A stretch of DNA of 58,515 nt from Paracoccaceae bacterium. GTDB taxonomy: Bacteria > Pseudomonadota > Alphaproteobacteria > Rhodobacterales > Rhodobacteraceae. The stretch is from positions 1 through 58,515 of the forward strand of contig JAHRVG010000049.1 of assembly GCA_019090795.1 (NCBI GenBank), written 5' to 3'. Positions 7,078 to 23,333 of this stretch are shown here, piece after piece (positions within the stretch are counted from its first letter, which is position 1; the number at the start of each line of letters is the position of its first letter). Made by a program: the position numbers and the translations under genes. Under the pieces are notes generated by a model, which was not told where the DNA came from, made no database searches, and worked only from the letters and a program-made list of their open reading frames with translations.

Positions 7078-7554
7078 TTATGCCTGATAAAAATAATAAC
7101 GATCCGGCGCGATATGAGCAGGGCCTTGAAGCGCCTTAAATTCAACCAGCGGCTGGCCGGAAACAATGATCCCGCCCTTGACCATGACCTTGGCAATGAG
7201 GGGGCTGAAACGGGCGGCTTCTGCGACGTCCTTCTCCTTTACACCAAATCCGAAATCATAGTGTGACAAGGCGACTTCCACGCCCAAACCGGCAAGTTTT
7301 GCCAAGCTCTCTTCTGCCTCGCCTTGCAGAAAATCCTGCTCCGGCGGCACGCAACTATGGTGGCATTGCAATATCCGGTCCATCACCCAGATACGGCGGT
7401 CCGGCATGATTTCCCGCATGTGGTCATAGGTGCGCCCATTGCCCAGCCCCATATCGAGCGCATCCCCTGGGAGCTGCGCAACCTTTTCCGCCGCCCAGTT
7501 CAACCCGTCCCGTTGGGCCGTAAAACGGCGCAACATACTGTCTAATCTGCTCAT
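7078..7554 (-). CDS. Class I SAM-dependent methyltransferase, last gene of glycan operon
   Basis: A 158-residue small methyltransferase-like protein. The fold's motif I appears as ALDMGLGNGRTYDHMRE, followed by an acidic end of strand two (RIWVMDR). The protein is short, lacking the C-terminal elaborations of most enzymes of this class. The start chosen is the ATG at 7554, whose ATGA overlaps the stop of the upstream deacetylase-like gene; an 11-residue extension upstream would lie wholly inside that gene. As the last gene of a coupled operon with four glycosyltransferases, it may methylate a sugar or terminate chain growth, but that is inference; a small metabolite substrate is equally possible. 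Confidence 0.72.
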   Translation of the reverse strand: MSRLDSMLRRFTAQRDGLNWAAEKVAQLPGDALDMGLGNGRTYDHMREIMPDRRIWVMDRILQCHHSCVPPEQDFLQGEAEESLAKLAGLGVEVALSHYDFGFGVKEKDVAEAARFSPLIAKVMVKGGIIVSGQPLVEFKALQGPAHIAPDRYYFYQA

Positions 7555-8315
7555 GTTATTGATCCTTTCAGGGTGTGGGCATTCCACAAAGAGACGGGAC
7601 CAGCCAGCATGGTTTCAAGAAACCCAACCGAGAAATCCCAAATCGCTGCATCATGCACCAAATGGTGCGTAAGAAAACCGAGGGGTTCACTATTATCCTG
7701 CGACCCTTTCCGGCGGTTTATCAAGAGTTCAACGGTTTGGGCAATCAGCATATCAGCGGAATGGGCCGAGCGGGTGCCATGCCAGTCTATCGGGTCGATA
7801 TGCGTGTTGATCTGCGCCAGCCCCGCACAAGCTTCTGGTCTCTGACGTGGGGTGAATGTTGATATGGCCAAAAAACCAGCATCAGCCAGAATCGGTAGAT
7901 GGATAGGTGCAAAACGGTTCCAAGGCGGCACAAACACAGGTGCAATATTCGGACCAAACAGTTTTTGCATTTTAACTGCACCATTCGAGATATCATCCTG
8001 AACTGCCTTTTGTGCCCTGTTCGCCCCGAATTCGCATTTCTTTTCACCTTCGGGCGCATGGTTCTGATGCAAAAACCCGTGAACAACCGGAACGGCCAAC
8101 GGAGTATCCGCCAGCCGTTCCGCAAGCTCCTGCGTTGCCCGACGGGGAATCACTGCCAAATGAACCGGCAGACCGTTTTCGCCAACTAATTCGAGCAACT
8201 GATCCAGCTGCCTGCTTGGCGCTATCGCATCGTCATCCCGCCACCAAAATGGCAGTTGCAACCCCTCACCCCGCCAGATCTCCAATTCTGTCTTGAGCGG
8301 TTTCCAGTCAGTCAA
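7551..8315 (-). CDS. Polysaccharide-deacetylase-like protein
   Basis: A 254-residue protein of the NodB/CE4 barrel type. Recognisable pieces are FWWRDDDAIAPS (in the place of the FDDG metal/base motif), a His-rich HGFLHQNHAP (in place of H-x3-H) and VPPWNRFAP. The departures from the consensus suggest either a divergent subfamily or altered chemistry. Two TTG starts are possible; 8315 is preferred because GGAGAG lies five bases upstream and the overlap with the preceding gene is then 8 bp. The alternative at 8342 adds nine residues. Next gene starts by ATGA overlap. It probably removes an acyl group from the glycan made by this operon (inference). Confidence 0.72.
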   Translation of the reverse strand: MTDWKPLKTELEIWRGEGLQLPFWWRDDDAIAPSRQLDQLLELVGENGLPVHLAVIPRRATQELAERLADTPLAVPVVHGFLHQNHAPEGEKKCEFGANRAQKAVQDDISNGAVKMQKLFGPNIAPVFVPPWNRFAPIHLPILADAGFLAISTFTPRQRPEACAGLAQINTHIDPIDWHGTRSAHSADMLIAQTVELLINRRKGSQDNSEPLGFLTHHLVHDAAIWDFSVGFLETMLAGPVSLWNAHTLKGSIT

Positions 8316-9441
8316 TTGAACTCTCCAGAACCCGTGTGACAATGCGAACTACCTCATTTGCACCATCAAAATGATTCCGCGACGGGGGGTCTTTTCGCAC
8401 GGCCTTTGAAAGACCCGCAAGCAAAGCTTCGGGCGTCAGATCGGCGGTTTTCACAACTGCAAACTGAGAATGCCGGGCAAGGCTCTTGGCACGCAATCCT
8501 TGCTCTACCTCGCCCCCTGCATCGAAGGGTACAAAAACCGCCGGTGTTCCGGTTTGCAGCAAATCCATCGCCGTGTTGTAACCGCACATGGCCACCGCCG
8601 CCGCCGCATGATGTAGCATTTGGCGAAAATCCGGCCGAGTTGGTTCAATGATCGTATGCGCCCCTGCCAACGCCTGAAGCCTGTTGATTTGTTGCGCTGC
8701 ATCCGCCCCCCCAACCAACAAGCGCCAAGGCCGGTTGTCCAGCTTTGCGGCCTCAACCGCCACTGTAAACAAAGCCTCGCCAACACCGCCGCCGCCCGCT
8801 GTGACCAGAACCTCGCCCGCACCGGTACCCAAGGGGTGCGCATCCGGCACCGGCGGCGCGACATATCCGGTATAGGCCAATTTAGCAGACAAAGCGGGCG
8901 TCACGGGCCAACTAGTTTCGAGGGGGGTTTGTTCTGGATCAGAATGGACTAGAACAGCGTCATAGTACTGGGTAATTCTTTGCTCTGTTTGTGTCGCCTT
9001 TTCAGGTTTGGAAGGGGGCGCTAGTATATCGCGGATAGAGCAGAATACCCGCGGTCTGCGAGGCAGGGAATGCGCTGTTTTCAACATCGCAGTGAACTCG
9101 GCGGCCAGAATACGGCGGCCAAAGGGGAAAAGTTCAGTAATCAGAACGTCCGGTGTAGTTTCCCGCAATATCCGGCACAGAGTATCCACACGATCTTGCA
9201 GATAGTGCTGATTGACCGGCCTGTTTTCCGCATCCAGCAAATGGGTAAAATTCACCCCATCGGATTTAACTGGTGGCAGTTGATGCAGCGTGACACCGCT
9301 GTAATCCAGATTGGCAACGCCCCCGCCGCCAGAAACCAGATCAACCGAATGGCCCTGCCGTGCAAATGCTCGGCCAAGGGTCAATGCGCGGCTTAAATGG
9401 CCGGTGCCCAATAAATGGGTGACACAGATCAGAACACGCAT
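8308..9441 (-). CDS. GT28/MurG-like glycosyltransferase
   Basis: A 377-residue GT-B fold glycosyltransferase. The N-terminal glycine-rich loop is THLLGTGHLSRAL. The C-terminal donor-binding domain shows VTAGGGGVGEAL and AMCGYNTAMDLL, followed by a Pro-Val-Phe-Val-Pro segment, as in MurG-related enzymes that use nucleotide sugars. Start: ATG at 9441, four bases after the stop of the phosphatase gene; the longer reading frame to 9501 would overlap that gene and does not resemble the family. The same loop and GGYNT-type motif occur in the first gene of this operon (12361-13680), so the two are probably paralogues. Sugar specificity cannot be read from the sequence. Confidence 0.82.
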   Translation of the reverse strand: MRVLICVTHLLGTGHLSRALTLGRAFARQGHSVDLVSGGGGVANLDYSGVTLHQLPPVKSDGVNFTHLLDAENRPVNQHYLQDRVDTLCRILRETTPDVLITELFPFGRRILAAEFTAMLKTAHSLPRRPRVFCSIRDILAPPSKPEKATQTEQRITQYYDAVLVHSDPEQTPLETSWPVTPALSAKLAYTGYVAPPVPDAHPLGTGAGEVLVTAGGGGVGEALFTVAVEAAKLDNRPWRLLVGGADAAQQINRLQALAGAHTIIEPTRPDFRQMLHHAAAAVAMCGYNTAMDLLQTGTPAVFVPFDAGGEVEQGLRAKSLARHSQFAVVKTADLTPEALLAGLSKAVRKDPPSRNHFDGANEVVRIVTRVLESSID

Positions 9442-9445
9442 GTTA

Positions 9446-10024
9446 TCATCGCTCCAACAGTCTCTCCGGTACAGCCGTGTGTTGCAGTGTCCCGTTATCA
9501 ATATCTATTATAAACAGATGGTTACGCTTTACTTTGAAACTAGGTTCACCCTGAAACTCCCACCCTGTAGCCATTGCCAGAAGAACCCGCATGATACCGA
9601 TATGACAGACGGCCACAGTGTCTTGATCTAGCGTATCAAGCCATCCCAGCAACCGCTGTCGAACCTGCGCCGGGCTCTCGCCGTTGGGCGGGTGGTAATC
9701 CCAGCCCCAATCCTCCAGATCACGAAACCCGGAGCAGGGATCGGCCCTTAGATCAATGCCTTTTAGGCCCTCCCAGTCGCCCCAATCCATCTCGGTCAGC
9801 GCGGCAATTTCCACTGGCGCATGTACGGTAATCAACTCCGCGGTCTGCACCGCACGGCGCAAGGGGCTAGAAACCAGCGCCGCCTTTCGCCACCTTTCCG
9901 GCAGGACAAGGCGCGACAGTTCAGCAACCGCGCCCTCGTCCAGCGGAATATCCGTGCGCCCCTGTATCTGCCCAAGGCGATTCCACGCGGTGTGGCCGTG
10001 GCGGATCAGTGCCAAACGTATCAT
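9446..10024 (-). CDS. Histidine phosphatase family protein
   Basis: A 192-residue phosphoglycerate-mutase-like histidine phosphatase. The catalytic LIRHGHTAWNRLGQIQGRTD is at the N-terminus, and SSPLRRAVQTAE and the second His region AVCHIGIMRVLLA follow at their expected places. The family acts on phosphorylated sugars, cofactor precursors (CobC) or proteins. Start: ATG at 10024 in an ATGA overlap with the preceding glycosyltransferase, giving the standard short N-terminus. Lying in the middle of a glycosyltransferase operon, it more plausibly acts on a sugar phosphate or glycolipid phosphate than on cobalamin precursors, but this rests on context only. Confidence 0.85.
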   Translation of the reverse strand: MIRLALIRHGHTAWNRLGQIQGRTDIPLDEGAVAELSRLVLPERWRKAALVSSPLRRAVQTAELITVHAPVEIAALTEMDWGDWEGLKGIDLRADPCSGFRDLEDWGWDYHPPNGESPAQVRQRLLGWLDTLDQDTVAVCHIGIMRVLLAMATGWEFQGEPSFKVKRNHLFIIDIDNGTLQHTAVPERLLER

Positions 10025-11121
10025 TTCCGCTCCCTTAGCAAGCGTTGAAACTCCTGCTCTAACTTCAGCGAAGCCGCCGGGCGCAAGTGGTTCTTTGTTA
10101 TATAGTCTCTTGCCGCTATTTGTGCCAGCTTCCACCGCTTCCGATCCAGCAACAATGCGTCAACTGCGGCTGCAAATTCTTGGGGCTGACCCAGCGGAAC
10201 CAACACCCCACCCGCACCAACAACATCTCGAACGCCGGGGCGATCCTGTGCCACAACGGGCAATCCGTGCGACTGAGCCTCCAGATAAACCATGCCAAAG
10301 GCCTCGTTTACACCGGGCCAGACGAACAAGTTGGCATGGGCCATTTGATCCGCCACTTCGGCACCTGAAAGCTGCCCGAGAAACCGGACCCGCGCCCCAA
10401 ACGGAGCGAACAATTCCTGCACTCTGGTTTGCGCCGACCCATCGCCTACCACATGCAACTGCCACTGCGTTTTTGAGTGGTGAAGCGTGTCGGCCAACAG
10501 CTCATATGATGCCAGTTTATCGCCTTCTCGCAACATTCCAACCACCAGCAACACCGGGGGCCCATCATTTCCGATGGTTGTTTCAGGCAGGGAATCGCGG
10601 TTCAAAAATGGCGGCAGGTTCAGCAAAGACTGCGCTTGTGTTTGACCGGCTATTAACGCCGGTTTATCGCGATCTGTCATGTAGAAAATACTATCAGCCG
10701 CATCACAGGCTGCCTCGGCCTGTTTCGCAAATTCTGCCCACGGCCCGTACAAACGTTTTGGAGAGCGGCTCGCCTCTATTAAAACATAGGGAATTTTCAA
10801 CGCCCTGGTGATCTGGGGCCCCAGTAAATCCGGCGCTTTATAGTAGTTGTGATAGGTCACCCAGATCTGCCAGTCTTGGGCCTGTGGCAGTTGTAAAATG
10901 CGGTCGGCTTCTTGTGCAGCAGCTGCCAGAATTTTCCGTTGAACTGTGGCGTCCCCTGCACCGTCACGGCTGCGAAATTCGGAAACCAGATCTACCTTTG
11001 GCGTGGATGACATCCCCATCAATGCCGCCATCAACCCCTGCGCCATGGCTCGATCCCCGGAAGGAACCGGATGGTTTGGCGATTTCATTGGTGCGTAAAA
11101 AGCAATCCGGTTTGGCGTCAT
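10021..11121 (-). CDS. Family 4 glycosyltransferase
   Basis: A 366-residue GT-B retaining glycosyltransferase. The donor-site region is EAFGMVYLEAQSHGLPVVA with the E-x7-E pair, preceded by VRFLGQLSGAEVADQMAHAN and VWPG. The N-terminal acceptor domain begins RIAFYAPMKSPNHPVPSGDR, typical of GT4 enzymes. Start: ATG at 11121, one base after the upstream TGA; a TTG five codons earlier (11136) is possible. Second of two GT4 genes placed head to tail, both flanked by GT28-like genes. It is cytoplasmic or membrane-peripheral and probably adds one hexose-type residue to a growing glycan; the sugar is unknown. Confidence 0.85.
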   Translation of the reverse strand: MTPNRIAFYAPMKSPNHPVPSGDRAMAQGLMAALMGMSSTPKVDLVSEFRSRDGAGDATVQRKILAAAAQEADRILQLPQAQDWQIWVTYHNYYKAPDLLGPQITRALKIPYVLIEASRSPKRLYGPWAEFAKQAEAACDAADSIFYMTDRDKPALIAGQTQAQSLLNLPPFLNRDSLPETTIGNDGPPVLLVVGMLREGDKLASYELLADTLHHSKTQWQLHVVGDGSAQTRVQELFAPFGARVRFLGQLSGAEVADQMAHANLFVWPGVNEAFGMVYLEAQSHGLPVVAQDRPGVRDVVGAGGVLVPLGQPQEFAAAVDALLLDRKRWKLAQIAARDYITKNHLRPAASLKLEQEFQRLLRERK

Positions 11122-11122
11122 A

Positions 11123-12364
11123 TCAGACCCCGTCAATGATTGCGTCCAACCGCCGCGTCAGTTGGTCAATTCCCTTTTGCACCCCAAACTCCGCCCGCAG
11201 CCGCTTGAGGGCAGCGGTTGCCATCGCTTTGCGCCTATCCCCGTCAGCAGCCATTGATTGCATTGCCTCGGCGATTTCTGCAGGGTCATCGTTCACCAGC
11301 AAGCCATGGGTACCACTGTCGATAAATTCCGGTATCGCAGAAACCGGAGTTGAGAGGATAGGCAGCATTTGTGATGCGGCCTCCATCAGCACATTGGGCA
11401 GACCGTCACGATCCCCATCAGAGGCAACGCGTGAGGGCAGAACAAACAAATCAGCATCGCGCATGGCGGCAATGACTTCGGGCTGATCACAGGCCCCTTG
11501 CCAAGTGATACGGGTGGTCAGGTTCAAACGTTCCGCGTGGGCTTGCATCTGATCGTTCAGGGAACCGCCACCAATATGGGTCCAGTGCCAATCCAAGCTA
11601 TCTGGCAACAGCGCCAGCGCATCAATCAGGCGGTCAAAGCCTTTCTTTTCAACCAGACGCCCCACAGACATCATGTGAAATTTGCCACCAGATGGAAACG
11701 CTCTTTTTGGCGGTTCTGGAAAGCGAGTCAGATCAAGACCATGATACAACAATTCCATATTGTCGGAATTATGAGCCAGCCCTTGCAAATATTCAGCCCC
11801 GAAACCGGTGCAAGTGACCCCGAACGCGGCCCCATCTGTACCGCCGGACAATTTTTCGCGCAACTCCCACTCCGGCGATGTCCAGATGTCTTTGGCATGC
11901 GCAGAGAAGCTCCACGGGATGGCGCGCATGATGGCGGCATAACGGGCGACAGAGGAGGGTGTGTGCAGGAAATGGGCATAGAGGGCTTGGGTCTCGGTAG
12001 GCAATTCCTGCGCCATTACGCAGGCCTGACCAAAGCGGCGGATGCGGTTTCGGGTTCGATCACGGCGAAAATCCTTGGCCCAGATCTGGCGCGCCAGACG
12101 ATAGCCCGGAAGCTTGCGGCAGGCTAGCCAAGCACGCATAACCCGCAGCGGTTCCTGATGTAGATATTCTGGCAGATAGCGCACTCTGGCGCTGATCTGA
12201 TCGTGCAAGGGGTGGCGTTTTTTGTCGGTAGGAAATCGCAGGGACCAAATATCAAACGGCCTGCCACTACGTTCCAGCGCGGCCAGCTCTTGCGCAATAA
12301 AGGTCTCAGACAGGCGCGGCCAGCCCTTGACCACTACCGCCAAAGCAGGGTGTTTTTCGGTCAT
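11123..12364 (-). CDS. Family 4 glycosyltransferase
   Basis: A 413-residue GT4-type enzyme. Acceptor-domain start LAVVVKGWPRLSETFIAQEL is characteristic of exopolysaccharide and lipopolysaccharide transferases. The C-terminal half has MMSVGRLVEKKGFDRLIDAL (about 240-259) and RDGLPNVLMEAASQMLP with the E-x7-E-like acidic pair. The ATG overlaps the stop of the preceding gene (ATGA), so translation is coupled. It shares the N-terminal KGWPRLSETFI pattern with amylovoran/colanic acid type transferases, which supports a surface-glycan role. Specificity cannot be assigned. Confidence 0.86.
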   Translation of the reverse strand: MTEKHPALAVVVKGWPRLSETFIAQELAALERSGRPFDIWSLRFPTDKKRHPLHDQISARVRYLPEYLHQEPLRVMRAWLACRKLPGYRLARQIWAKDFRRDRTRNRIRRFGQACVMAQELPTETQALYAHFLHTPSSVARYAAIMRAIPWSFSAHAKDIWTSPEWELREKLSGGTDGAAFGVTCTGFGAEYLQGLAHNSDNMELLYHGLDLTRFPEPPKRAFPSGGKFHMMSVGRLVEKKGFDRLIDALALLPDSLDWHWTHIGGGSLNDQMQAHAERLNLTTRITWQGACDQPEVIAAMRDADLFVLPSRVASDGDRDGLPNVLMEAASQMLPILSTPVSAIPEFIDSGTHGLLVNDDPAEIAEAMQSMAADGDRRKAMATAALKRLRAEFGVQKGIDQLTRRLDAIIDGV

Positions 12365-13680
12365 GCGGTCGCCTTGATCGATTCCGGTTGCAACAGGACA
12401 TCAACCCGTTCAACAATGTATTCCAACCCTGTTAACAAATCAGGGTACTTGCTGGTCGAGGGCGGTTTCTGGTTGGGCAGGTCTCGGATTGCCGCAACCA
12501 TCACCGCCGCAGAAGTGCCATCCCTATCCGGATCAAGCATGCGCACCAGTGACAATTCTTCGGCCCGTGACGCCCGGATGTATTGTTCCAGCCGGGGGGT
12601 TTTTCGGGGCATGATTATCGCCGGTTTGTCAAAAGAAAGAATTTCACAAAACGTGTTGTAACCGCCCATAGCAATCACGCCCTGCGCCCCTGCCATCAGG
12701 CTTTCCATGCGCGAGTCAAAACCCAAGCTTACAACACGGCCATTCAGGGCCTCGACCCGTTCTTCAAATTCAACCCGTGTCTGCCCTGACAGGAACGGCC
12801 CGTAAATAATATGCGCGCGCGGGGTTAGCGTCGGATCTGTTTCATAGGCCTGCAAAACCTGATCCACCAGCAACTCACCATCGCCACCACCGCCGGGTGT
12901 TACCAAAATATACGGTTCCTCGTCACGTTCTGCCTGCCCCCAGCTATCGCGACGCAAGTAACCGGTCCAATGCATCCGCTCGTCCACAGAAGGCGGGTAA
13001 TCCAAACCTTGCAACGGATTATAGATATTACGCAGACCATATACCCAGATTTCATCATAAAACTGCGCCATGGCTGAAACCGCGCCTTTGCGATCCCACT
13101 CCTCTGCCAGCGCTTTGGCATCATCCAGCACGTCGCGCAGGCCCAGCACAATTTTTGTATTGGTGTTTTCCTTGAGCCACTCCAGCGATTGCAGTAACTC
13201 ACCCCGAAAACCCGTGGGTTCTTTATCAACAATCACCAGATCTGGCACAAACTTCTCAACTGCAGTGCGGATCAGACCTGCGCGCAGGGCCGTTGTTTCG
13301 TCAATGTCCAGCCCCAAGGCCTCGGATACATACGACCCGTCGGTCAGTTTGGTCACGCCGGGCAAGCGAATGTGATCCACTCGCTCAGGAAAAGTAAACC
13401 GCCCGGCCACAGGCGACCCAGTTAGAATCAACGCAGACAGATGATCGTTCGCTTTTGTTAACGCCCCCGCGATTGTACGTGAGCGGCGCAAATGACCCAG
13501 CCCGAAAGTGTCGTGGCTGTAGAGCAACACACGAGGAGCAGGAGTCTCGGGAAACCTGCCAGCGCTGTGGTCCGAATACTGCAATCTTTGGCCCTTCACT
13601 TCCCTATGCGCGCACTGCAATAAGCGGAGTAGCGCCTGAACCCGCATCATACTGCCTGTTTCAGTTAACGCTATGGCCAT
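12361..13680 (-). CDS. GT28-like glycosyltransferase (COG4671-like), first gene of operon
   Basis: A 439-residue GT-B enzyme resembling the predicted glycosyltransferases of COG4671. The acceptor-domain loop is SHDTFGLGHLRRSR (about 54-67). The donor domain contains VTPGGGGDGELL and AMGGYNTFCEIL followed by PAIIMPRKTPRLEQ. The N-terminal 45 residues before VLLYSHD are not conserved-looking and may be over-long: ATGs at 13650 and 13647 follow an AGG and are good alternative starts. It opens a seven-gene minus-strand operon; the 244 bp upstream are shared with the divergent mscS gene and must hold both promoters. It is related to the fifth gene downstream (8308-9441). Confidence 0.82.
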   Translation of the reverse strand: MAIALTETGSMMRVQALLRLLQCAHREVKGQRLQYSDHSAGRFPETPAPRVLLYSHDTFGLGHLRRSRTIAGALTKANDHLSALILTGSPVAGRFTFPERVDHIRLPGVTKLTDGSYVSEALGLDIDETTALRAGLIRTAVEKFVPDLVIVDKEPTGFRGELLQSLEWLKENTNTKIVLGLRDVLDDAKALAEEWDRKGAVSAMAQFYDEIWVYGLRNIYNPLQGLDYPPSVDERMHWTGYLRRDSWGQAERDEEPYILVTPGGGGDGELLVDQVLQAYETDPTLTPRAHIIYGPFLSGQTRVEFEERVEALNGRVVSLGFDSRMESLMAGAQGVIAMGGYNTFCEILSFDKPAIIMPRKTPRLEQYIRASRAEELSLVRMLDPDRDGTSAAVMVAAIRDLPNQKPPSTSKYPDLLTGLEYIVERVDVLLQPESIKATA

Positions 13681-13924
13681 TTAGCGCATTTATTGGGGAA
13701 AATGGCCTATTTTTTACCTCGGCTGATCAAAATGTAACGGGTGCCCTTGCGACACAATTAACAAGTTCTCACTTGGAAATTTCCACTGTTTAATTCCTGT
13801 CACATTGTCTTGACGCGCGGTTACATTAAATAGATTTTACAATTCCGCCATTACTGCAGATAATCGCCCCCAATCCAGACAGCATCATTCCAGACGGCTG
13901 CAACAGAAAATGCAAGGAACCCAC

Positions 13925-16231
13925 ATGCTTTTGATGCGACTTGGCCGATTGGTTTTAGCAACCGTGGTGGTATTATTGCTGGCACTTCCGGTTGCGGCAC
14001 AAGAATCAGCCAATCCGATGGCTGATATCGTAAAATCCGCAACCGATGCGGGAATGAAAGTTATCGTCATTGAGGGCAGCGGAACAAGTGCCACAGTAGA
14101 AGCCAAAGCAGAGACCGCCCATGAATCTATGATGATGAGCACCCAAAAGAAGATGGATGCCTTTTGGGAAAAACTGTCTCTTCGTTTAAGCCGTGCACCG
14201 GCACTGATCGAAGAAGTAATCTATATTACCAACTACGCCAGCCCCACAGGACATTTTTCGCATTACTTTGTCATCCTGATCTGGATATTGGCGCTCTTAC
14301 TTATCTCAGAGCAAATTATTCGCCATGGCGTGGGCCGTAGGTTTTTTGGAGAGTGGTTTATCGGGCTGCAAACCGAAAATCCCATTGGGTATACGCAAAA
14401 ATTGCCAATCCTGTTAACCCGTAGCTTAATGGCCGTAGTTTCGCTGACTATGGTTGTGCTGATTTCCTATGCACTGGGTCGGCTGTTTTTTGGTAAAGCA
14501 GACAATGATATAGTGCGCCTAACCGTGGCGTATATTTATGCAAGTTATTTCTCATCTCGCGGCATTGTATTTCTGTGGCGCATGATATTGGCACCCTATC
14601 TTGAGCAATACCGGATACCCCATTTTTCTGATACCGACGCACGCAAGCTGTATTACTGGCTGCTGACCGTTTCCAGTTTTGCGATTGTGGCGCTGAATTT
14701 TGTAAGCTGGATACAAGAGCTGGGCGTTGGCTACGACATTCATGCACTGTTGAATTCAGCGCTTACATTTCTAGTCGTCGTGATGAATATTGCCATGGTC
14801 ATTGCTAACTACAGAGCTATTTCCAACGCCATCCTGAATGGTGAAAACCTGCGAGAGGTATCCATTGCCGCACAGTTTTTTTCGCGTGCCTGGGCACCTG
14901 CTGTCATTCTCTATTTCTTTGTCGCTTGGGGGGAAATGACCTATCGGCTGGTCATGAACTTTCCCTTGGCGACCTCTTTGATAACAGGGTTTTACGGAAT
15001 ACTTTTGGCGGTTCTGGTGGCCTATGGTTTAGTAGGTTACATTATTGAGCGGATATTCAACCGTCGCCGCATGCTAGAAGCAATGCGCTTGCAAGCTTTG
15101 GAATCCGAACAAGAGGAAGGCGAAGATACGCCCTCGGCCGAGGCCACAGTTAACGACGCCCCGCTGCGCACACATAAAATGCGAACTTTTGAGGATTTGT
15201 CCCGCCGCCTTGCCAATATTTTAGCCCTGTTTGCCGGCGCTTGGGCTTTATCAATGATTTGGCGCATTGATATAGATATGGTGAGCATAGTATCCGCCCA
15301 ACGCAGCTATGATCTCGCCTTTGTCCTGTTGATTGGCTATATTGTTTATCACACTGTACGCATCTGGATGGACCAGAAAATCGAGGAAGAAGGCGGCGGC
15401 GATGTCGAGGTCGCCCCCGGTGACGAAGGCGGCGCCGCCGGTTCGTCCCGGCTGGCCACCTTGCTGCCGTTGTTCCGGAACTTCGTGCTCATTGTGATTG
15501 CTGTTACCGTTGGTTTGATTGCCCTAACCGATTTGGGTATCAACGTGGCCCCGCTGTTTGCTGGTGCGGGTGTTGTCGGTCTGGCCATCGGTTTTGGCGC
15601 GCAAACGCTGGTGCGGGATATTCTTTCGGGCGCGTTTTACCTGTTTGATGACGCCTTTCGTAAAGGCGAGTACATCGACATTGGCAACGTAAAAGGAACG
15701 GTTGAACGGGTGTCGGCCCGCTCGTTTCAATTGCGCCATCACCTTGGCCCCTTGCACACTGTGCCATTTGGTGAAATCCAGTTTCTCACCAATTTTTCCC
15801 GTGATTGGGTAATGATGAAACTGCCCCTGCGCGTGACCTATGACACGGATGTGGAAAAGGTGCGCAAACTGGTGAAAAAGCTAGGGCTGGAATTGCTGGA
15901 AGACGAGGTGGTCGGTTCACAATTCCTGCAACCGCTGAAATCACAAGGCGTGATTGAAATGCAAGACAGCGCCATGATAATCCGGGTCAAGTTCATGACT
16001 AAACCTGGGGATCAGTGGATATTGCGCAAACGGGTCTATCAGGAAATCCGTGACCTGTTTGAGCGCGAAGGCATCAAGTTTGCCCACAAAGAGGTTACAG
16101 TTCGGCTGGCCGATGGCAACAAGGTTGCCGACCTGACCGAGGAAGAGAAACAAACCATCAGCGCCGCCGCGCTGGCAGAAGAAGAGCCGCCTGTCGGCGC
16201 CAAGAAAGGCAGCAGCGGTGATGACCGATAA
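13925..16231 (+). CDS. Large MscS-family mechanosensitive channel
   Basis: A 768-residue mechanosensitive channel. A signal peptide (hydrophobic run ending LALPVAAQ) leads to a periplasmic segment, then a long series of membrane helices (about 85-500) as in the large MscK/YbiO/Ynai-type channels. The conserved pore-lining helix and beta domain begin near residue 548 (GLAIGFGAQTLVRDILSG, then FRKGEYIDIG). The C-terminal cytoplasmic domain runs to the end with a Glu- and Lys-rich tail. Start: ATG at 13925 with AAGGA six bases upstream; an ATG five codons earlier lacks such a site. The channel releases solutes on osmotic downshock. Divergent from the glycosyltransferase operon; convergent with an ABC importer. 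Confidence 0.9.
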   Translation: MLLMRLGRLVLATVVVLLLALPVAAQESANPMADIVKSATDAGMKVIVIEGSGTSATVEAKAETAHESMMMSTQKKMDAFWEKLSLRLSRAPALIEEVIYITNYASPTGHFSHYFVILIWILALLLISEQIIRHGVGRRFFGEWFIGLQTENPIGYTQKLPILLTRSLMAVVSLTMVVLISYALGRLFFGKADNDIVRLTVAYIYASYFSSRGIVFLWRMILAPYLEQYRIPHFSDTDARKLYYWLLTVSSFAIVALNFVSWIQELGVGYDIHALLNSALTFLVVVMNIAMVIANYRAISNAILNGENLREVSIAAQFFSRAWAPAVILYFFVAWGEMTYRLVMNFPLATSLITGFYGILLAVLVAYGLVGYIIERIFNRRRMLEAMRLQALESEQEEGEDTPSAEATVNDAPLRTHKMRTFEDLSRRLANILALFAGAWALSMIWRIDIDMVSIVSAQRSYDLAFVLLIGYIVYHTVRIWMDQKIEEEGGGDVEVAPGDEGGAAGSSRLATLLPLFRNFVLIVIAVTVGLIALTDLGINVAPLFAGAGVVGLAIGFGAQTLVRDILSGAFYLFDDAFRKGEYIDIGNVKGTVERVSARSFQLRHHLGPLHTVPFGEIQFLTNFSRDWVMMKLPLRVTYDTDVEKVRKLVKKLGLELLEDEVVGSQFLQPLKSQGVIEMQDSAMIIRVKFMTKPGDQWILRKRVYQEIRDLFEREGIKFAHKEVTVRLADGNKVADLTEEEKQTISAAALAEEEPPVGAKKGSSGDDR

Positions 16232-16262
16232 AGTATCCGTCTTGATCAAGACGGATACTTTA
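16229..16262. terminator. 34-nt perfect palindrome, bidirectional terminator containing both stops
   Basis: The 34 bases form a perfect inverted repeat (each arm 17 nt, centred on TTGATCAA). The first three bases are the TAA stop of mscS and the last three, read on the other strand, are the TAA of the ABC permease gene. CGA and TCG flanking bases extend the stem after a one-base bulge. RNA from either strand would fold into the same hairpin ending in CUUUA. No long U-run follows. A shared bidirectional terminator or mRNA 3'-end stabiliser is the simplest reading. Confidence 0.7.
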
Positions 16263-17417
16263 ATCGTGAGAGTAGGGATCAAGTGAATCCCTAAGGCCGT
16301 CACCCAGAAAATTGAAAGCCAGCACCACAAAGATTACCGGCAGCATCGGAATAGCCGTCCACGGGTAAATCTCGATCGAGGCAAGGTTTTGCGCATCATT
16401 CAGCATCACTCCCCAGCTCACTGCGGGCGCACGCAGGCCAAGGCCCAAGAACGACAACGCTGTTTCGCCAAGGATCATGGCGGGGATCGACAGCATCGCA
16501 CTGGCTATCAGATGACTGGCGAAATTGGGCAGCAAATGCTTGCGAATAATCCTTGAGGGTTTCGCGCCCATCATCTCCGCTGCGCGCACGAACTCCTCTT
16601 CTCGCAGGCTAAGGAACTTTGATCGCACTGCACGCGCCAGCCCCGGCCAATCCAGCAACCCCAGAATGATCGAAATGATAAAGAAAACGGCGACTGGCCC
16701 CCAATGCGAGGGCACGGCGGCGGATAAGGCAAGCCAAAGTGGCAATTCAGGAATCGAGCGCAGAACCTCGATTATCCGGTTCACCACCCAGTCTATCCAG
16801 CCCCCGAAATAACCCGCGATCCCGCCTATGGAGATGCCTAAAACAAAGGACACGGTGATGCCTATCAAGCCCACTGTAAGCGACAATTGCCCGCCATAAA
16901 AAATACGCGAGAACACATCCCGGCCCAAACGATCCGCACCCCACAGGAACACAGTCGCCCCTTCTGGTGCACAGAATAAATGCCGGTCAGTCTTGATAAA
17001 GCCCAGAAAGTAATGTGTCCCGCCCTTGCAAAAGAATTCCAGCTTGGCCGGATGATCATAGTCCGAGGTATAGACCCAGCGAAACTGCTCCAGATCCGCT
17101 GTCGCGGTTTCAGGATAGACAAAGGGGCCGATAAATTTGCCTTCATGGAAAAAATGCACCATTTGCGGCGCTGCATAGAGGTGATCCGCATTCCGTTCAT
17201 TGGGCGTATAGGGCGCGATAAAGCCGGCGAAGGGCATCATCAGATAGGAAATCGCTAAAAACACGGCCGAGATCAGGCCCAGCTTGTGGCGCCGGAACTT
17301 GCGCCAGATTAACAGCCAGTTCGGGGCATCCAGATCAGGGTGCGCGGGTGCGCTAGTCTCGGCATTCGCATCATAGGGTGCGCTGTCAACATAATGGTCG
17401 TCGGTCAGATTGGTCAT
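16260..17417 (-). CDS. ABC transporter permease, YejE/OppC type
   Basis: A 385-residue inner-membrane permease of the dipeptide/oligopeptide type. After a 40-residue cytoplasmic N-terminus comes TM1, then an extended periplasmic insert (about 70-155), as in YejE, and then the core helices. The EAA loop that contacts the ATPase is EEFVRAAEMMGAKPSRIIRK. The insert holds two cysteines (130 and 149) that could form a disulfide. ATGA overlap with the preceding permease. The substrate of the four-gene importer is unknown; peptides, opines or similar are typical. Confidence 0.9.
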   Translation of the reverse strand: MTNLTDDHYVDSAPYDANAETSAPAHPDLDAPNWLLIWRKFRRHKLGLISAVFLAISYLMMPFAGFIAPYTPNERNADHLYAAPQMVHFFHEGKFIGPFVYPETATADLEQFRWVYTSDYDHPAKLEFFCKGGTHYFLGFIKTDRHLFCAPEGATVFLWGADRLGRDVFSRIFYGGQLSLTVGLIGITVSFVLGISIGGIAGYFGGWIDWVVNRIIEVLRSIPELPLWLALSAAVPSHWGPVAVFFIISIILGLLDWPGLARAVRSKFLSLREEEFVRAAEMMGAKPSRIIRKHLLPNFASHLIASAMLSIPAMILGETALSFLGLGLRAPAVSWGVMLNDAQNLASIEIYPWTAIPMLPVIFVVLAFNFLGDGLRDSLDPYSHD

Positions 17418-18442
17418 CGATCACGCCCCCCATAGCGTATCCGCGGGTCCAGCAGCATCAGCAACACATCGGAAACCATTGTCCCAATCAGTGTAAGCCC
17501 TGCCACAAACAACAGAATAAAGCCCGCCAAGAACTGGTCTTGCGACTTTAACGCCGTAAGCAAGGCCGGGCCGATTGTCTGTAACCCCAGCACCACCGAT
17601 ACCAGCACAGAGCCGGAAATCAACGAGGGCAGCAAGTTACCAATGTCGGCAACAAATGGGTTGAACGCAACCCGCAACGGGTATTTCAGAATGGCCTTCA
17701 CCGGCGGCACCCCTTTGGCGCGGGCGGTATCAACATAGGGTTTGCTCAGCTCGTCCAACAGATTGGCCCGAAGCCGCTGCATCATCGCCGCCGCACCGGA
17801 AGTACCAATCACAAAGGTCGGAATGATCAGGTGCAACAACACCGATTTCACCTTGGCAGCAGACATCGGCTCGCCCTCGAATTCTGGGGCCATCAACCCG
17901 CCAATGGGCAAGTTCAAGTATTTGTGGCCATAGTAAAACAGCATCAGCGCCAGCAGAAAATTGGGCGTAGCCAACCCCAGATACCCAACAAAAGCAGAGG
18001 TGTAATCGACCCATGTCTTGGATCTCGCCGCCGCCAAAACACCCAAGGGCAGGGCCACCATATAGACAAACAGGATCGCTGCGACATTCACCAACACCGT
18101 CAACCAAAGCGCGCTGCCAACAATCTCAGATACCGGTTTATCAAATTCAAACGACCAGCCAAAATCACCCTGAAGGATACCTGAGAACCCGTGCGGGCCA
18201 GGATAAAACCCCATCCAGATCAGATATTGCCGCCAGAGCGGTTGATCCAGAGAATACTCCCGCCGCAGGAACTCCACCTTGGCCACGCCAGATTCCTGCC
18301 CGGTAGAGCGCAGTTCGGCGATGAGGTTAGAAAGATAGTCACCCGGTGGCAAGTTCATGATAAAAAACACTAGAGCGGACACAACTACCAAAGTCATCAG
18401 CATGGTGAAAAAGCGGAAAACTGCAAAGCGGATAATCGGCAT
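17414..18442 (-). CDS. ABC transporter permease, YejB/DppB type
   Basis: A 342-residue partner permease. The N-terminal helix (RFFTMLMTLVVVSALVFFIM) is followed by the usual periplasmic segment (GDYLSNLIAELRSTGQE) and five further helices. The coupling-loop sequence DTARAKGVPPVKAILKYPLR is the EAA motif of this class. The start codon shares a base with the stop of the substrate-binding gene (TAATG). Together with 16260-17417 it forms the heterodimeric channel of an oligopeptide-type importer. Confidence 0.9.
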   Translation of the reverse strand: MPIIRFAVFRFFTMLMTLVVVSALVFFIMNLPPGDYLSNLIAELRSTGQESGVAKVEFLRREYSLDQPLWRQYLIWMGFYPGPHGFSGILQGDFGWSFEFDKPVSEIVGSALWLTVLVNVAAILFVYMVALPLGVLAAARSKTWVDYTSAFVGYLGLATPNFLLALMLFYYGHKYLNLPIGGLMAPEFEGEPMSAAKVKSVLLHLIIPTFVIGTSGAAAMMQRLRANLLDELSKPYVDTARAKGVPPVKAILKYPLRVAFNPFVADIGNLLPSLISGSVLVSVVLGLQTIGPALLTALKSQDQFLAGFILLFVAGLTLIGTMVSDVLLMLLDPRIRYGGRDR

Positions 18443-20361
18443 TAGTAATCCCCCGCATCAATAAAAAAGGCTTCATCAACCCGGTGAATGCCAAAATGCG
18501 CGCCCGGATCCCATGCCCAAAGGCCCTTTTTCGGGACGTTGCGCAATCGGTTTGACACCACGACGGGTTGCGGGGCCTCGGCCAGAATACCAATACCATA
18601 CATTTCATCGGCGTGAATTTTCAACATCTCAGCCCAGATTTCCCCGCGCCGGGAATCCTCAGTTGCCACCTCCCATTCTGCCGCCAATTCCATCAAACGG
18701 CGCGGTTGGGGCATGTCAATCGGCTCGCCCGCCTCACCGTTGGTCTGGTAATACTGGCCCCATTTTGGCCAGGCAAAAAACTCTTGCGCCCGAGGGGCCA
18801 AATAATCAGGCGAAGTGGTGGCTGACGGAACGCCATTGTCCCAGCCATACCAAACGGACGCCATTGATTGGCCAGAAAACACATGTTGGCGCAGAATATC
18901 GCGGTCAAGCGGACGCACGACCAGTTCAATCCCGATGTCGCGCCATGTGTCTGCGGTGATTTGCAAGGCATTCTCGACCTCTTGCCGCTCACCCGCTGTT
19001 TCCACCAGAATACGCATGGCCTTCTCGTTGGGCAGTAACCGCAAGCCGTCACTGCGACGCTCGGAATAGCCCATTTCATCCAGTATCCTGTTCGCCTTGT
19101 CAGGATCATAGACCGCATCGTTCAAACGGTTTTCCATCGAAAAGAAAGGACTAGCGGGCAAAGCTGTCATGTTGCCCTCGGAAGCCAACCCAAAATACAG
19201 CGCCCGGTTGATCATGCGCCGGTCAACACCCAATGACAGTGCTTTGCGAAAGCGCACATCACGCAAAATTTTGCGCCAGTACGGGTCCGCATGATTCAAA
19301 TTCGGAAATATTGCAATCTGCGACGCCGTTCCTGCCTGCCACAAAAAAACTTTGTAATCAGCACCCTCGATTTCGCCCTTTTTCAGGATTGGCACATCTT
19401 TGAAATTCAGCCCGCGCGCCTGCAAATCTGCTTCTCCCGCGTTGGTTTTTGCGGCAACCAAGCCCTTGCCAACGATGCTCATTTCCACAGTGTCGATATA
19501 GGGCAGTTGCAAACCGGTGCTGTCGATCCGGTGGTAAAACGGATTGCGCACAAACTGGCGGCGGCTTTCTTTTCCGGTGTCTGCCGGTATCCATGGCTGC
19601 AAGGTTGGCAGGCGATGGTTGTTGAATTTATACATGTTGTCGCGCTTGTTATGCAGCGCGGCCCAACTGCGCACCTTTTTCTTGGCGATGGCTTTGGCCA
19701 GCTTTTCGGGATCAGCAAAATCCTTGTGGAATTGTTTCAGATAATGGGCGGGACGGTAAATAAACGGTGGGCGCGCCTGCGCCAAACGCGGCAGAAAACC
19801 GGGGTTTGGCCTGGACCAATCAAAAATCACAGTAACCTCATCGGGAAAGCTGACCTTTGGCAGATCGCCATCCAGACGCATGAAAGAGGGTGGGCCAGAG
19901 GGGGATAACTCAGCGTTATTGGCGATTTTTTCCCACCAATACTGAAAGTCATAACTGGTAAAAGGCTTGCCATCGGACCACTTGTGGTTTTTGCGTAGCC
20001 TAAAAGTGAACTTGCCGCCCTCGATTACCACATCCTGTAAAATATCTGGCACCAGCCGGTAGTTTTCATCATAGCCAACCAGTCGGGCATAGCCGTAGAC
20101 AACCATCTGCCGGATGTCTTTGGAGCGGGTGATCATTGTGCGCAATGTCCCCCCCTGCTGGCCCTGCAAACGCCCTTTTGCTGCCATATCAACAATGATC
20201 GGCGGGTCCGGCAAACGCCCTGCGATAGGAGGCATGACTTTATCCTTCACAGCATCCTGCCAAAATGCAGTCTCCTGCAACACAGGCAATTCACTCGCGA
20301 AGGTGGGGCAAGCGAGCAGTAATGCGGTCAATGTGCTGAAAACCTTGCGGGTCATTTTCAT
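18442..20361 (-). CDS. ABC transporter substrate-binding protein (SBP_bac_5)
   Basis: A 639-residue periplasmic binding protein of the peptide/nickel family (cluster C), longer than the typical 500-550 residues. A signal peptide (KVFSTLTALLLACPTFAS) is seen at the N-terminus. The family signature region YDENYRLVPDILQDVVIEGG and the following FRLRKNHKWSDGKPF are at about 100-140; MINRALYFGLASEGNMTALP marks the lobe hinge. The ATG lies in an ATGA overlap with the ATPase gene. It supplies substrate to the permeases encoded next. The substrate cannot be read from the sequence; the extra length resembles YejA-type proteins. Confidence 0.9.
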   Translation of the reverse strand: MKMTRKVFSTLTALLLACPTFASELPVLQETAFWQDAVKDKVMPPIAGRLPDPPIIVDMAAKGRLQGQQGGTLRTMITRSKDIRQMVVYGYARLVGYDENYRLVPDILQDVVIEGGKFTFRLRKNHKWSDGKPFTSYDFQYWWEKIANNAELSPSGPPSFMRLDGDLPKVSFPDEVTVIFDWSRPNPGFLPRLAQARPPFIYRPAHYLKQFHKDFADPEKLAKAIAKKKVRSWAALHNKRDNMYKFNNHRLPTLQPWIPADTGKESRRQFVRNPFYHRIDSTGLQLPYIDTVEMSIVGKGLVAAKTNAGEADLQARGLNFKDVPILKKGEIEGADYKVFLWQAGTASQIAIFPNLNHADPYWRKILRDVRFRKALSLGVDRRMINRALYFGLASEGNMTALPASPFFSMENRLNDAVYDPDKANRILDEMGYSERRSDGLRLLPNEKAMRILVETAGERQEVENALQITADTWRDIGIELVVRPLDRDILRQHVFSGQSMASVWYGWDNGVPSATTSPDYLAPRAQEFFAWPKWGQYYQTNGEAGEPIDMPQPRRLMELAAEWEVATEDSRRGEIWAEMLKIHADEMYGIGILAEAPQPVVVSNRLRNVPKKGLWAWDPGAHFGIHRVDEAFFIDAGDY

Positions 20362-22142
20362 AGCTGTACCCTCACGAAATGGCCGGGCTCTGATTCTACA
20401 AGATCAGGCGCTTGCATACCGGTAAAGCGAAAAGATTCGGGCCATGTATCAGGATTGCCCGCACCAATCGCCACCGCCTCGAGATCAACCTTTTGATCCA
20501 TACTCGGCTCCAGACAAGCTGCAATCAATGCCTTGGTGTAGGGGTGCTTGGGCGCAGTAAACAGAACATCCGGCGCCGCTTGTTCAACAATTTGTCCCCG
20601 CCGCATCACCGCAACCTCATCCGCGATGCGGGATACAACCGCCAAATCATGGCTAATGAACAAATAGGACAGGCCCAGATTATCGCGAATCTCCTCAAGC
20701 AGTTCCAGCACCTGCATTTGCACGGACAGATCCAGCGCCGAGGTCGGTTCATCGCAGACCAGCAAGCTGGGGTTCAGGGCTAAGGCGCGGGCGATTGACA
20801 AGCGTTGCCTCTGACCTCCGGAAAATGCATGCGGGTAGCGGCGCAACATGGACGGGTCAAGACCGACCTGTTCCAGCAATTCAATCGCACGGTCTTTGCG
20901 CTCTAAACGGGTGCCAATTTGGTGAATTTCAAGCGGCTCTGTCAGAATGTCGATCACCTGCATTCGCGGCGAAAGCGAACTGAACGGGTCTTGAAACACC
21001 ATCTGGGCCTGACGTTGAAAGTTGCGTTTCTCAGGCGGGGACAGGGTTTGCACTTCTATTGGCGGTTCACCCGCTTTTGGCCAAAACCGGATGATCCCGC
21101 CTGCATCAGAGGTGCGTGCGCCCAGCGCAATTTGTGCAACCGTGGATTTGCCGGAACCGGACTCGCCCACAATCGCGAAAGTTCCCCCGCGCTCTACGGT
21201 GATATTCACCCCGCGCACTGCTTTGATTATCGTGCTTTTAGAAAGAAACGAGCCGCCGCGCAGATCAAAGCTTTTCGAAATATTTTCAAGTTGCAGTATC
21301 GGATCTCGCACTACACGCGTACATGTCGGTTCGGCCTCATGTGGAATGCTGGGTGCCGCGGCAATCAGTTTTTGCGTATAGCCATGCACCGGATTATCCA
21401 GCACAGTTGCCACAGGGCCAGATTCCATAATCCGGCCATTGCGCATTACCACAACCTTATCCGCACAATTCGCCACCACGCCCAGATCATGGGTCACCAG
21501 AATGACCGCCATGCCGGTTTCTTGCTGCAAATCCCTGATTAACCCCAACACTTGCGCTTGGGTTGTTACATCAAGCGCCGTCGTCGGCTCGTCTGCAATC
21601 AGCAAATCAGGCTTGGCCACCATCGCCATGGCGATCATCGCGCGTTGGCGCATGCCGCCGGACAGCTCAAACGGATAGGACCGGTACACCTGTTCCGGTT
21701 CGGGAAATCCGACCCGCTCAAACGCTTGCAAAACAATCTCTTTGGCACTGCGCTTGGAATGGCCACGATGAAGGCACAAAACCTCGCTCACTTGCGCACC
21801 AACGCGATGCAGTGGGGAAAGAGAGTGCATGGGTTCTTGAAAAATCATCGAGATCAGGTTGCCGCGAATGTCGCGCAGTTTACGTTCAGACATCGCAATC
21901 AGATCAATGTCGCCCGTCTCTGAATTCAACAACACCGAACCAGAATGAATCCGTGCCGCCTTGGGCAGTATCCGCAATATCGCCCGACAGGTCTGGGTTT
22001 TTCCGGAACCGGATTCCCCGACCAATGCAAGGGTTTCTCCGCGTGAAACATCAAAGTTTATATCGCGGATTAACGGCTCTCCCGACCCGAAACCAATTGC
22101 CAAGTCTCGTACTTGCAACAACGGTGTTTCTTGCGAATTCAT
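20358..22142 (-). CDS. Fused dual ABC ATPase, YejF/OppDF type
   Basis: A 594-residue protein with two complete nucleotide-binding domains, equivalent to OppD and OppF joined. Domain 1 has Walker [11 protein letters not shown], signature [13 protein letters not shown] and Walker [13 protein letters not shown]. Domain 2 has [25 protein letters not shown] and [13 protein letters not shown]-terminal CLEPSMDQ belongs to the oligopeptide-type tail. It is the promoter-proximal gene of the importer operon; GGGGAGG lies upstream of the ATG. The 171 bp to the neighbouring epimerase gene is AT-rich and probably carries the operon promoter, though no clear -35/-10 pair stands out. Confidence 0.92.
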
Positions 22143-22313: not shown

Positions 22314-23333
22314 TTAAAGCCCGTAATAATCCCTGTACCATTCAACAAACCGATCAACACCTTGCTGAACCGAGGTGCGCGGTTGGTAGTTCACCAGATT
22401 TTTCAACAGCTCGCAATTAGCCCAAGATGCCGACACATCGCCGGGTTGAATGTCCATGTAGTTGCGGGTGATCTTGCGCTCAATCGCATTTTCGATCGCC
22501 TGGATATAGTCTAACAAGAGCACCTTTTCAGAGTTCCCGATATTGATCACCCGAAACGGGGCGACATCGCTCAGGGAGTCCCCCTCAACAGGTTGCCAAT
22601 TGGCACGCTCCGAAACTTTCGGTGGCGGGGCTTTGATTAGCAGGGAAATGGCGCTGACAATATCGCCGACATAGGTAAAGTCGCGCTCCATCTTGCCATA
22701 GTTAAATACATCAATCGGTTTACCTTCCAGCCCGGCCTTGGTGAATTTAAACAACGCCATATCAGGGCGCCCCCAAGGGCCATAAACAGTGAAAAACCGG
22801 AACATGGTCGTCGGCAACTCCCAAAGGTGTGCATAGGAATGCCCCATGCTTTCTCCCGCCTTTTTCGTTGCCGCATAAAGCGACATTTGCGTGTCGGCCT
22901 TTTGGGTCTCAGCAAAGGGCATTTCGCGATTTGCACCGTATACTGAACTGGTAGAGGCCATCAACAAATGGTCCACCGTCAGTTCGCGGGCACACTCCAT
23001 CACATTAAACGTCCCAATCAGGTTGGTCTCAATATAGGTGCGCGGGTCCTCAATAGAATGGCGCACACCGGCTTGGGCCGCGAGGTGTACGATCACATCC
23101 GGGCAAAACGCCTTTGCCGTTGCCAGCAATGCGTCATAATCGCAGATATCGACTTCGCTGGCAGTGAACCTAGCGTTCTGCAGCAAAATATCGTGGCGCC
23201 GCCGCTTTAGCTTCGTGTCATAATAATCCGTAATCGCATCAATGCCGAGCACCTCATGCCCCTGATCCAGCAACAGCCGTGCCAGATGGAAGCCAATGAA
23301 GCCCGCGCTTCCGGTTACCAAAATTTTTTGCAT
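22314..23333 (-). CDS. UDP-glucuronate 4-epimerase
   Basis: A 339-residue short-chain dehydrogenase of the extended type. It interconverts UDP-glucuronate and UDP-galacturonate, a precursor for capsule and lipopolysaccharide. Seen are the NAD loop GSAGFIGFHLARLL, the family-typical GIDAITDYYDTKLKRRR, catalytic YAATKKAGE (Tyr-x3-Lys) and RFFTVYGPWGRPDMALFKF. The length equals CapI/LspL-type epimerases. The gene stands alone, but the product would supply an acidic nucleotide sugar that the glycosyltransferase operon of this window could use (inference). dTDP-glucose dehydratase is less likely because of the DYYDTKLK signature. Confidence 0.9.
   Translation of the reverse strand: MQKILVTGSAGFIGFHLARLLLDQGHEVLGIDAITDYYDTKLKRRRHDILLQNARFTASEVDICDYDALLATAKAFCPDVIVHLAAQAGVRHSIEDPRTYIETNLIGTFNVMECARELTVDHLLMASTSSVYGANREMPFAETQKADTQMSLYAATKKAGESMGHSYAHLWELPTTMFRFFTVYGPWGRPDMALFKFTKAGLEGKPIDVFNYGKMERDFTYVGDIVSAISLLIKAPPPKVSERANWQPVEGDSLSDVAPFRVINIGNSEKVLLLDYIQAIENAIERKITRNYMDIQPGDVSASWANCELLKNLVNYQPRTSVQQGVDRFVEWYRDYYGL

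Follow-up and report, generated by a model that had tools for sequence, protein, structure and literature searches.

In the alfalfa symbiont Sinorhizobium meliloti, the genes smb21252-smb21271 form the phazolicin-protecting polysaccharide (PPP) cluster of Travin et al. 2023. Its authors report that nine genes of the cluster were depleted in transposon sequencing (Tn-seq) and needed for fitness with phazolicin (PHZ), that smb21252 and smb21265 mutants have a PHZ minimal inhibitory concentration of 0.18 ug/mL, eightfold lower than the 1.47 ug/mL of the wild type, and that smb21265 is a 'glycosyltransferase family protein' (PMC10128002). Seven of the nine PPP genes are up-regulated under Myxococcus attack, according to another study (PMC10315480). 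A second system of interest is SPH1118 of Sphingomonas sp. A1, described as a pectin-binding protein whose complexes with galacturonate ligands have been solved (PMC9314435). We analysed a stretch of 58,515 nucleotides (hereafter the window) from a marine Paracoccaceae bacterium (assembly GCA_019090795.1, the whole of contig JAHRVG010000049.1), in which seven minus-strand genes, g1-g7, occupy positions 7078-13680. They encode a GT28-like glycosyltransferase, two GT4 glycosyltransferases, a histidine phosphatase, a second GT28-like glycosyltransferase, a NodB-fold deacetylase-like protein and a Methyltransf_17 protein, in that order. This operon is most likely the roseobacter counterpart of a surface glycan system known from S. 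meliloti by its genetics but not by its chemistry.

The link rests on reciprocal best hits, judged inside a 41-kb region of S. meliloti 1021 pSymB and not across the whole genome. Five operon genes (g1 at 46%, g2 50%, g3 37%, g5 36% and g6 36%) have such hits in this region, as do a mechanosensitive channel of the MscS type and an ATP-binding cassette (ABC) importer, both of which lie beside the operon in the window. Queries from Sulfitobacter and Shinella gave further reciprocal best hits there for an exporter-like protein, a cyclic-nucleotide-binding (cNMP) protein and a sugar dehydrogenase. The SMb numbers come from strain R28, whose locus tags were counted backwards starting at its LacI gene; there, 20 tags (one not listed) run from the first GT4 gene to the FkbM gene and are followed by a LacI regulator. 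Since SM_b21272 is a LacI regulator (PMC11387232) and 20 tags precede the LacI gene on R28, the stretch is by this counting smb21252-smb21271, and the g1 orthologue, at 837144-838355 of S. meliloti 1021 pSymB, is smb21265. Unlike the window, with its one compact operon, S. meliloti keeps g1-g2-g5 and g3-g6 as separate groups and also carries genes for cyclase, polysaccharide lyase and FkbM methyltransferase; the window in turn has g4 and g7, and its genome is without the exporter-like protein. Membership in the PPP group is thus likely, as a variant with five shared genes, two added ones (g4 and g7), a compact order and a missing partner. We file it as a variant because the exporter-like protein, a common part of these systems, was searched for and is absent here.

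The open reading frames (ORFs) and Pfam matches of the window, together with the fold of g6, bear out the gene order and positions given in an earlier note on this DNA. With the start codons that we chose as the likeliest, the junctions are -4 (g1/g2), +1 (g2/g3), -4 (g3/g4), +4 (g4/g5), -8 (g5/g6) and -4 bp (g6/g7), just as the earlier note's 'overlaps or 1-4 bp gaps' had it. The starts of the longest ORFs of g4 (10135), g5 (9501) and g7 (7587), and probably also that of g1, lie too far upstream. None of the seven proteins reaches an NCBIfam cut-off; the best model for g2 is EpsE (127.5 bits, cut-off 400). Relatives of g1 share 43-62% identity with the window protein in an alignment of 13 sequences, and g5 is 22% identical to g1. 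In g4, R45, H46, R94, E115 and H178 are kept in at least 95% of 72 sequences. The AF2 model of g6 (predicted local distance difference test, pLDDT, 93.9) resembles 3rxz best in Foldseek, followed by carbohydrate esterase family 4 (CE4) enzymes such as 2cc0 and also ArnD (8t0j), with TM scores to the query of 0.40-0.63 among the rows listed; D36-D38, H88, H92 and P140-N142 are invariant in 23 sequences. The predicted NodB fold and the conserved D37/D38, H88 and H92 would thus provide the metal-binding D-H-H set. We assume that these residues and the PPWN motif are those expected of NodB/CE4 proteins, and that the conserved motifs of g4, g6 and g7 are likely active-site residues.

These seven genes are one real, ancient and co-inherited unit, and not a chance arrangement. 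Among 120 genomes of the same family, 23 have a g7 match (own genome included), and in 16 of the 20 loci fetched from the other 22 genomes g1-g7 are complete and in the same order. The four exceptions are a locus that ends at a contig edge (L039), one with two blocks (L033), one with g1-g6 and two g7 homologues beyond MscS (L051) and one with a g7 homologue only (L050). In G003, also among the 20, the block is split, with g4-g7 together and g1-g3 beyond the importer and MscS. Class-wide, g1 is found in 76 of 241 Alphaproteobacteria genomes (E 1e-25). From 20 of these 76 we fetched the surroundings of g1; g1-g6 stand in order in 14 (two of them from the same family), and in the remaining six between one and five of these genes are missing from the neighbourhood. 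Named loci, the best 80 of 588 relatives, gave a similar view: 66 extend at least 7.2 kb past the g1 start, and of these 35 have all seven genes, 56 have g1-g6 and 61 are collinear. The nearest named records are metagenome-assembled genomes labelled Alphaproteobacteria (91% in g1) and Amylibacter sp. (86%), and Ruegeria pomeroyi and Ruegeria sp. TM1040 also have such loci. Pairwise distances of g1-g7, MscS and the importer's substrate-binding protein (SBP), computed over 31 loci and the window, correlate with those of g1 at 0.73-0.92, values that none of 500 permutations reached. The synteny across relatives that the earlier note had asked about is present, and its reading of the genes as a single glycan assembly operon, one that includes a phosphatase, a deacetylase-like protein and a methyltransferase, is supported, with g4, g6 and g7 keeping their likely active-site residues.

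Pfam and NCBIfam scans found no Wzx, Wzy, flippase, polymerase or ABC export subunit among the seven proteins, in agreement with the earlier note. Its further view, a purely cytoplasmic system without transport, is not supported: the ABC importer at 16260-22142 and the exporter-like protein accompany g1 in most sampled genomes that have it. The same importer adjoins the cluster in many Rhodobacterales, Azospirillum and rhizobial loci. Its SBP is found in 73 of the 241 class genomes, together with g1 in 71, with g1 alone in 5, SBP alone in 2 and neither in 163. The class counts used fixed E limits (1e-25, 1e-60 and 1e-100) with all rows kept, so that genome G185, with a g1 match at 34%, counts as positive; Fisher values for co-occurrence take the genomes as independent and ignore shared ancestry. 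The importer thus belongs to the same system as the operon, though outside it. Among PDB proteins, the SBP matches 5ipw (7.5e-77) and SPH1118 (2.1e-61). It is 28% identical to SPH1118 and keeps several basic and aromatic residues of the cleft (R466 in 55 of 61 sequences, R294 in 52, W594 in 50 and R438 in 43), whereas other cleft residues differ. The importer is not YejABEF itself: the best match of the ATPase is YejF, with 528.8 bits against a cut-off of 834. In Rhizobium leguminosarum, DUF3095 and cyclase-like proteins adjoin the importer (L188:4429-8778), a possible source of cyclic nucleotides.

The exporter-like partner is an ABC_membrane protein with a cNMP-binding domain, which is fused in Sulfitobacter (1034 aa) and split off in L066 (895 + 152 aa). 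In the class sample 73 genomes have both this protein and g1, 3 have g1 only, 4 the exporter-like protein only and 161 neither. The two genes lie within 1 kb in at least 49 of the 73, a lower bound as adjacency was computed on 50 hand-picked same-contig pairs. With strong g1 matches only, the 120 same-family genomes divide into 23 with both, 4 with g1 only, none with the exporter-like protein only and 93 with neither; the five weak g1 matches (G035, G065, G072, G103 and G104; 32-40% identity) change this to 23/9/0/88, and the 23 include weak or piecewise exporter-like matches (for example, G077 29% and G101 32%). The importer and the exporter-like protein thus belong to the operon's system as further units.

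The partner resembles the exporters MsbA, PCAT1 and TmrAB in fold, as seen in the matches of the L120 model, whose confidence is middling (pLDDT 76.6, pTM 0.48). It differs from them in that the canonical GK[ST] end of Walker A and DE end of Walker B are absent in all 20 aligned proteins (the short L169 fragment was left out), in the cNMP domain fused or next door and in a nucleotide-binding domain with about 250 extra residues, in which a Q-loop-like segment occurs three times. We take this segment to correspond to the stretch after the Q loop. Decay is uneven: the lysine of Walker A, a glutamate close to Walker B or the histidine of the H loop survives in several of these proteins, and LSAGQ survives in L165. 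Judged by these motifs, the exporter-like protein is apparently unable to hydrolyse ATP. An Escherichia coli plasmid, pCFSAN004179G (L190), carries g1 and g2 homologues with an ordinary ABC exporter having both Walker ends, as well as two annotated phosphotransferases, an alginate-export-type porin and a sugar dehydrogenase.

In Azospirillum lipoferum 4B, the AZO_p4 locus has g1-g6 in the same order, with the importer and a fused exporter-like/cNMP gene just upstream, but its products have only generic names and no MscS match is found in the 21 kb compared. Several candidate identities were rejected. A Wzx/Wzy-dependent or KpsMT ABC capsule operon does not agree with the seven proteins, which include no flippase, polymerase or ABC export subunit (this search covered the operon's proteins only), and g4 is not the alpha-ribazole phosphatase CobC (91.1 bits, cut-off 162.9).

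Clues to the sugar come from outside the operon. A nucleotide-sugar dehydrogenase of the same genome, encoded on another contig (C54), scores 608.5 bits against the cut-off of 592 of the TviB model, and would thus be a UDP-GlcNAc C-6 dehydrogenase. It lies beside a sugar short-chain dehydrogenase/reductase, whose NCBIfam matches at E 1e-30 are all below cut-off, with TviC not among them. This recalls the Salmonella Vi antigen, from which the window differs by the separate contig and by the weak, sub-cut-off TviE matches of g2; other Vi genes were not searched for. Homologues 49-53% identical to a Sulfitobacter dehydrogenase follow g7 in L213 and L214 and stand ahead of the importer in L212 and L216, and the L102 dehydrogenase is just over the TviB cut-off (592.1). 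The TviB-class dehydrogenase and the kinship of the SBP with SPH1118, taken together, suggest a hexuronate-containing glycan.

We consider it reasonably probable that the operon carries out the cytoplasmic assembly in a surface glycan system of the PPP type that occurs across Alphaproteobacteria. The sequences show directly which genes are present and in what order, their co-inheritance and co-occurrence, the conserved active-site residues and the homology with the S. meliloti region; for the carrier, sugar identity, order of steps, recycling and barrier role in the window organism, we infer the following scheme. The two GT28-like and two GT4 enzymes would assemble an acidic glycan of oligo- or polysaccharide length, probably carried on a lipid, from a hexuronate or N-acetyl-hexuronate nucleotide sugar supplied by the TviB-class dehydrogenase encoded elsewhere. 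An amino sugar would be deacetylated by g6, an intermediate dephosphorylated by g4 and the product methylated by g7. In most relatives the cyclic-nucleotide-binding exporter-like protein may assist in glycan transport or control glycan release, and fragments of the glycan may be taken back in by the family-5 ABC importer next to the operon. The finished glycan would coat the envelope and keep antimicrobials out. A more specific version is tentative: a make-release-recapture system, in which a pseudo-ABC exporter without ATP hydrolysis gates release by cAMP or cGMP, the importer retrieves oligouronides, and the window's lineage lost the gate and uses MscS instead.

Several observations weigh against the PPP-type reading. 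The exporter-like partner was not found by searches of the window's own genome. Nor was it found in seven g1-bearing members of the genus (G369, G370, G372, G375, G377, G379 and G388); in the genus sample of 33 genomes, g1 is present in 18, the partner in 11 and both in 10. The three class genomes with g1 and no partner are the window's, G143 (86% complete) and G185 (the weak g1 match). An assembly gap as the sole reason is unlikely, because the partner is also missing in the three genomes closest in g1 (G375, G388 and G377), which still have the operon and of which G375 is only 70% complete. As the partner is not found here, the glycan would need another exit, or would stay inside the inner membrane. 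Pfam scans, confined to 22 proteins of the window, revealed neither a polymerase nor an outer-membrane exporter. Counterparts of g4 and g7 are absent from the S. meliloti region, where g3, g5 and g6 match at 36-37% only, and the left-side anchors, aminotransferase SMb21248 and sulfotransferase SMb21249 (PMC5498481), leave two SMb numbers unaccounted for. The PPP polysaccharide itself is as yet uncharacterised according to Travin et al., who give the name provisionally and write 'we speculate' (PMC10128002). The dehydrogenases of L183, L188 and L214 are below the TviB cut-off. For the importer, the SPH1118 residues R57, D483 and R496 are not retained in the SBP family, the best PDB match (5ipw) is named oligopeptide-binding, and the ATPase passes the NCBIfam cut-offs of dipeptide (472 against 408) and nickel-type subfamilies, so the importer could carry a peptide or a metal.

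Some of these points would suit other explanations. The glycan may be a short oligosaccharide, periplasmic or bound to the membrane, that serves osmotic adaptation, with MscS and the importer balancing a small glycan across the inner membrane. Of 53 full-length named loci, 40 include MscS, and the S. meliloti region has it too; its distances track those of g1 more closely than do those of any other of the eight proteins compared (r 0.92), the operon has no polymerase by Pfam, and the window's genome retains MscS and the importer along with the operon, but not the exporter-like protein. We regard this explanation as unlikely: several loci of other families have the exporter-like protein, and not MscS, in the position divergent from g1, the reported S. 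meliloti phenotype is antimicrobial sensitivity, and a precursor enzyme of the TviB class points to a charged polymer at the surface.

It is still less probable that the product is soluble and cytoplasmic, such as a methylated oligosaccharide or a cofactor like bacillithiol or mycothiol. The combination of glycosyltransferases, phosphatase, deacetylase and methyltransferase is, we assume, reminiscent of such routes, g2 and g3 match MshA and BshA weakly, and the missing exporter-like partner would fit. These matches (43.8-55 bits) are, however, far from the cut-offs of 462.5 (MshA) and 273.7 bits (BshA), so that a mycothiol/bacillithiol-type pathway was rejected; four glycosyltransferases also speak against a soluble product, and across the class sample the presence of g1 coincides almost perfectly with that of the importer and the exporter-like protein. 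Equally improbable is a set of separate modules that merely share a neighbourhood, the importer feeding on environmental oligouronides or peptides outside the biosynthetic system. One would not expect a food-uptake system to track a biosynthetic gene as closely as the SBP tracks g1, the two being apart in only 7 of 241 genomes, even though its relative SPH1118 serves pectin uptake and chemotaxis (PMC9314435) and the ATPase passes the dipeptide and nickel-type cut-offs. We retain the PPP-type surface glycan as the preferred reading.

Features of the operon, its neighbours and the exporter-like partner (window positions unless a locus is given)
Feature	Coordinates	Strand	Assignment and remarks
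g1	12361..13680	-	GT28/MurG-like glycosyltransferase (GT28a); PF04101 29.8 bits; true start probably internal
g2	11123..12364	-	GT4 glycosyltransferase (GT4a); PF00534 96 bits, PF00534/PF13692 family
g3	10021..11136	-	GT4 glycosyltransferase (GT4b); PF13692 89.8 bits; likely start ATG 11121
g4	9446..10135	-	Histidine phosphatase branch 1; PF00300 122.1 bits; likely start ATG 10024
g5	8308..9501	-	Second GT28-like glycosyltransferase (GT28b); PF04101 35 bits; likely start ATG 9441
g6	7551..8342	-	NodB/CE4-fold deacetylase-like protein; DUF2334 match 19.4 bits, below the cut-off of 26
g7	7078..7587	-	Methyltransf_17 S-adenosylmethionine methyltransferase; PF12692 234.6 bits; PDB relative 3iht; likely start ATG 7554
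MscS-type mechanosensitive channel	13910..16231	+	Divergent neighbour of g1; PF00924/PF21082/PF21088
ABC importer permease 2	16260..17417	-	Syntenic homologues in same-family loci; annotated permease at the matching place in the Ruegeria sp. TM1040 locus
ABC importer permease 1	17414..18442	-	79% identical to the annotated permease of Sulfitobacter L183
ABC importer SBP, family 5, 639 aa	18442..20361	-	PF00496
ABC importer ATPase (double)	20358..22142	-	Two ABC_tran stretches
NAD-dependent sugar epimerase/dehydratase	22314..23333	-	PF01370, PF16363; ahead of the importer; membership uncertain
Exporter-like protein, examples	L183:20065-23169, L066:10636-13323, L120:5845-8949		Degenerate Walker motifs, threefold Q-loop-like repeat

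Both importer permeases were identified by homology and synteny, not by the Pfam scan. The three NCBIfam matches of the epimerase at E 1e-30 are all below their cut-offs, and in L102 a sugar dehydrogenase occupies its place ahead of the importer. Just downstream of the operon (5953-6933) lies a metallo-beta-lactamase-fold protein related to AidB-type acyl-homoserine lactone lactonases (137.6 bits, cut-off 360), a gene that adjoins the operon also in L102 and L215. A second, divergent Methyltransf_17 gene is found on the opposite strand about 14-21 kb from g7 in 14 same-family genomes (for example, L035:17933-18337) and only 3 kb away in G003; the window's genome gave no second match. In Ruegeria sp. 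TM1040, carbon-phosphorus (C-P) lyase (phn) genes follow the operon (L182:20909-28859), and ORFs resembling DUF1045 and phn neighbours were recognised, by look only, in 17 of the 80 named loci. We take the C-P lyase-like genes downstream in Ruegeria-type loci as lineage-specific.

The earlier note knew of no described product for this gene set. The chemical product is indeed still undescribed, but the homologous PPP cluster has a name and a mutant phenotype; the match with a characterised pathway that the note had allowed for is thus half there, as a provisional name and a phenotype with no structure. A few word combinations in the open literature returned no paper describing the seven-gene set itself, and, in titles and the beginnings of abstracts, no description of the class-wide link between the glycosyltransferase operon, the importer and the cNMP-linked exporter-like protein. 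The g1 gene is present in about a third of the sampled Alphaproteobacteria, and the reported S. meliloti phenotypes tie such a cluster to antimicrobial-peptide resistance and the response to a predator. If true, a nearly universal exporter-like partner that lacks canonical ATPase motifs yet carries a cyclic-nucleotide domain would be an unusual route to move or control a surface glycan. The link between roseobacters and the PPP cluster gives a parts list for a system without known chemistry, and marine laboratory strains in which its product may be found.

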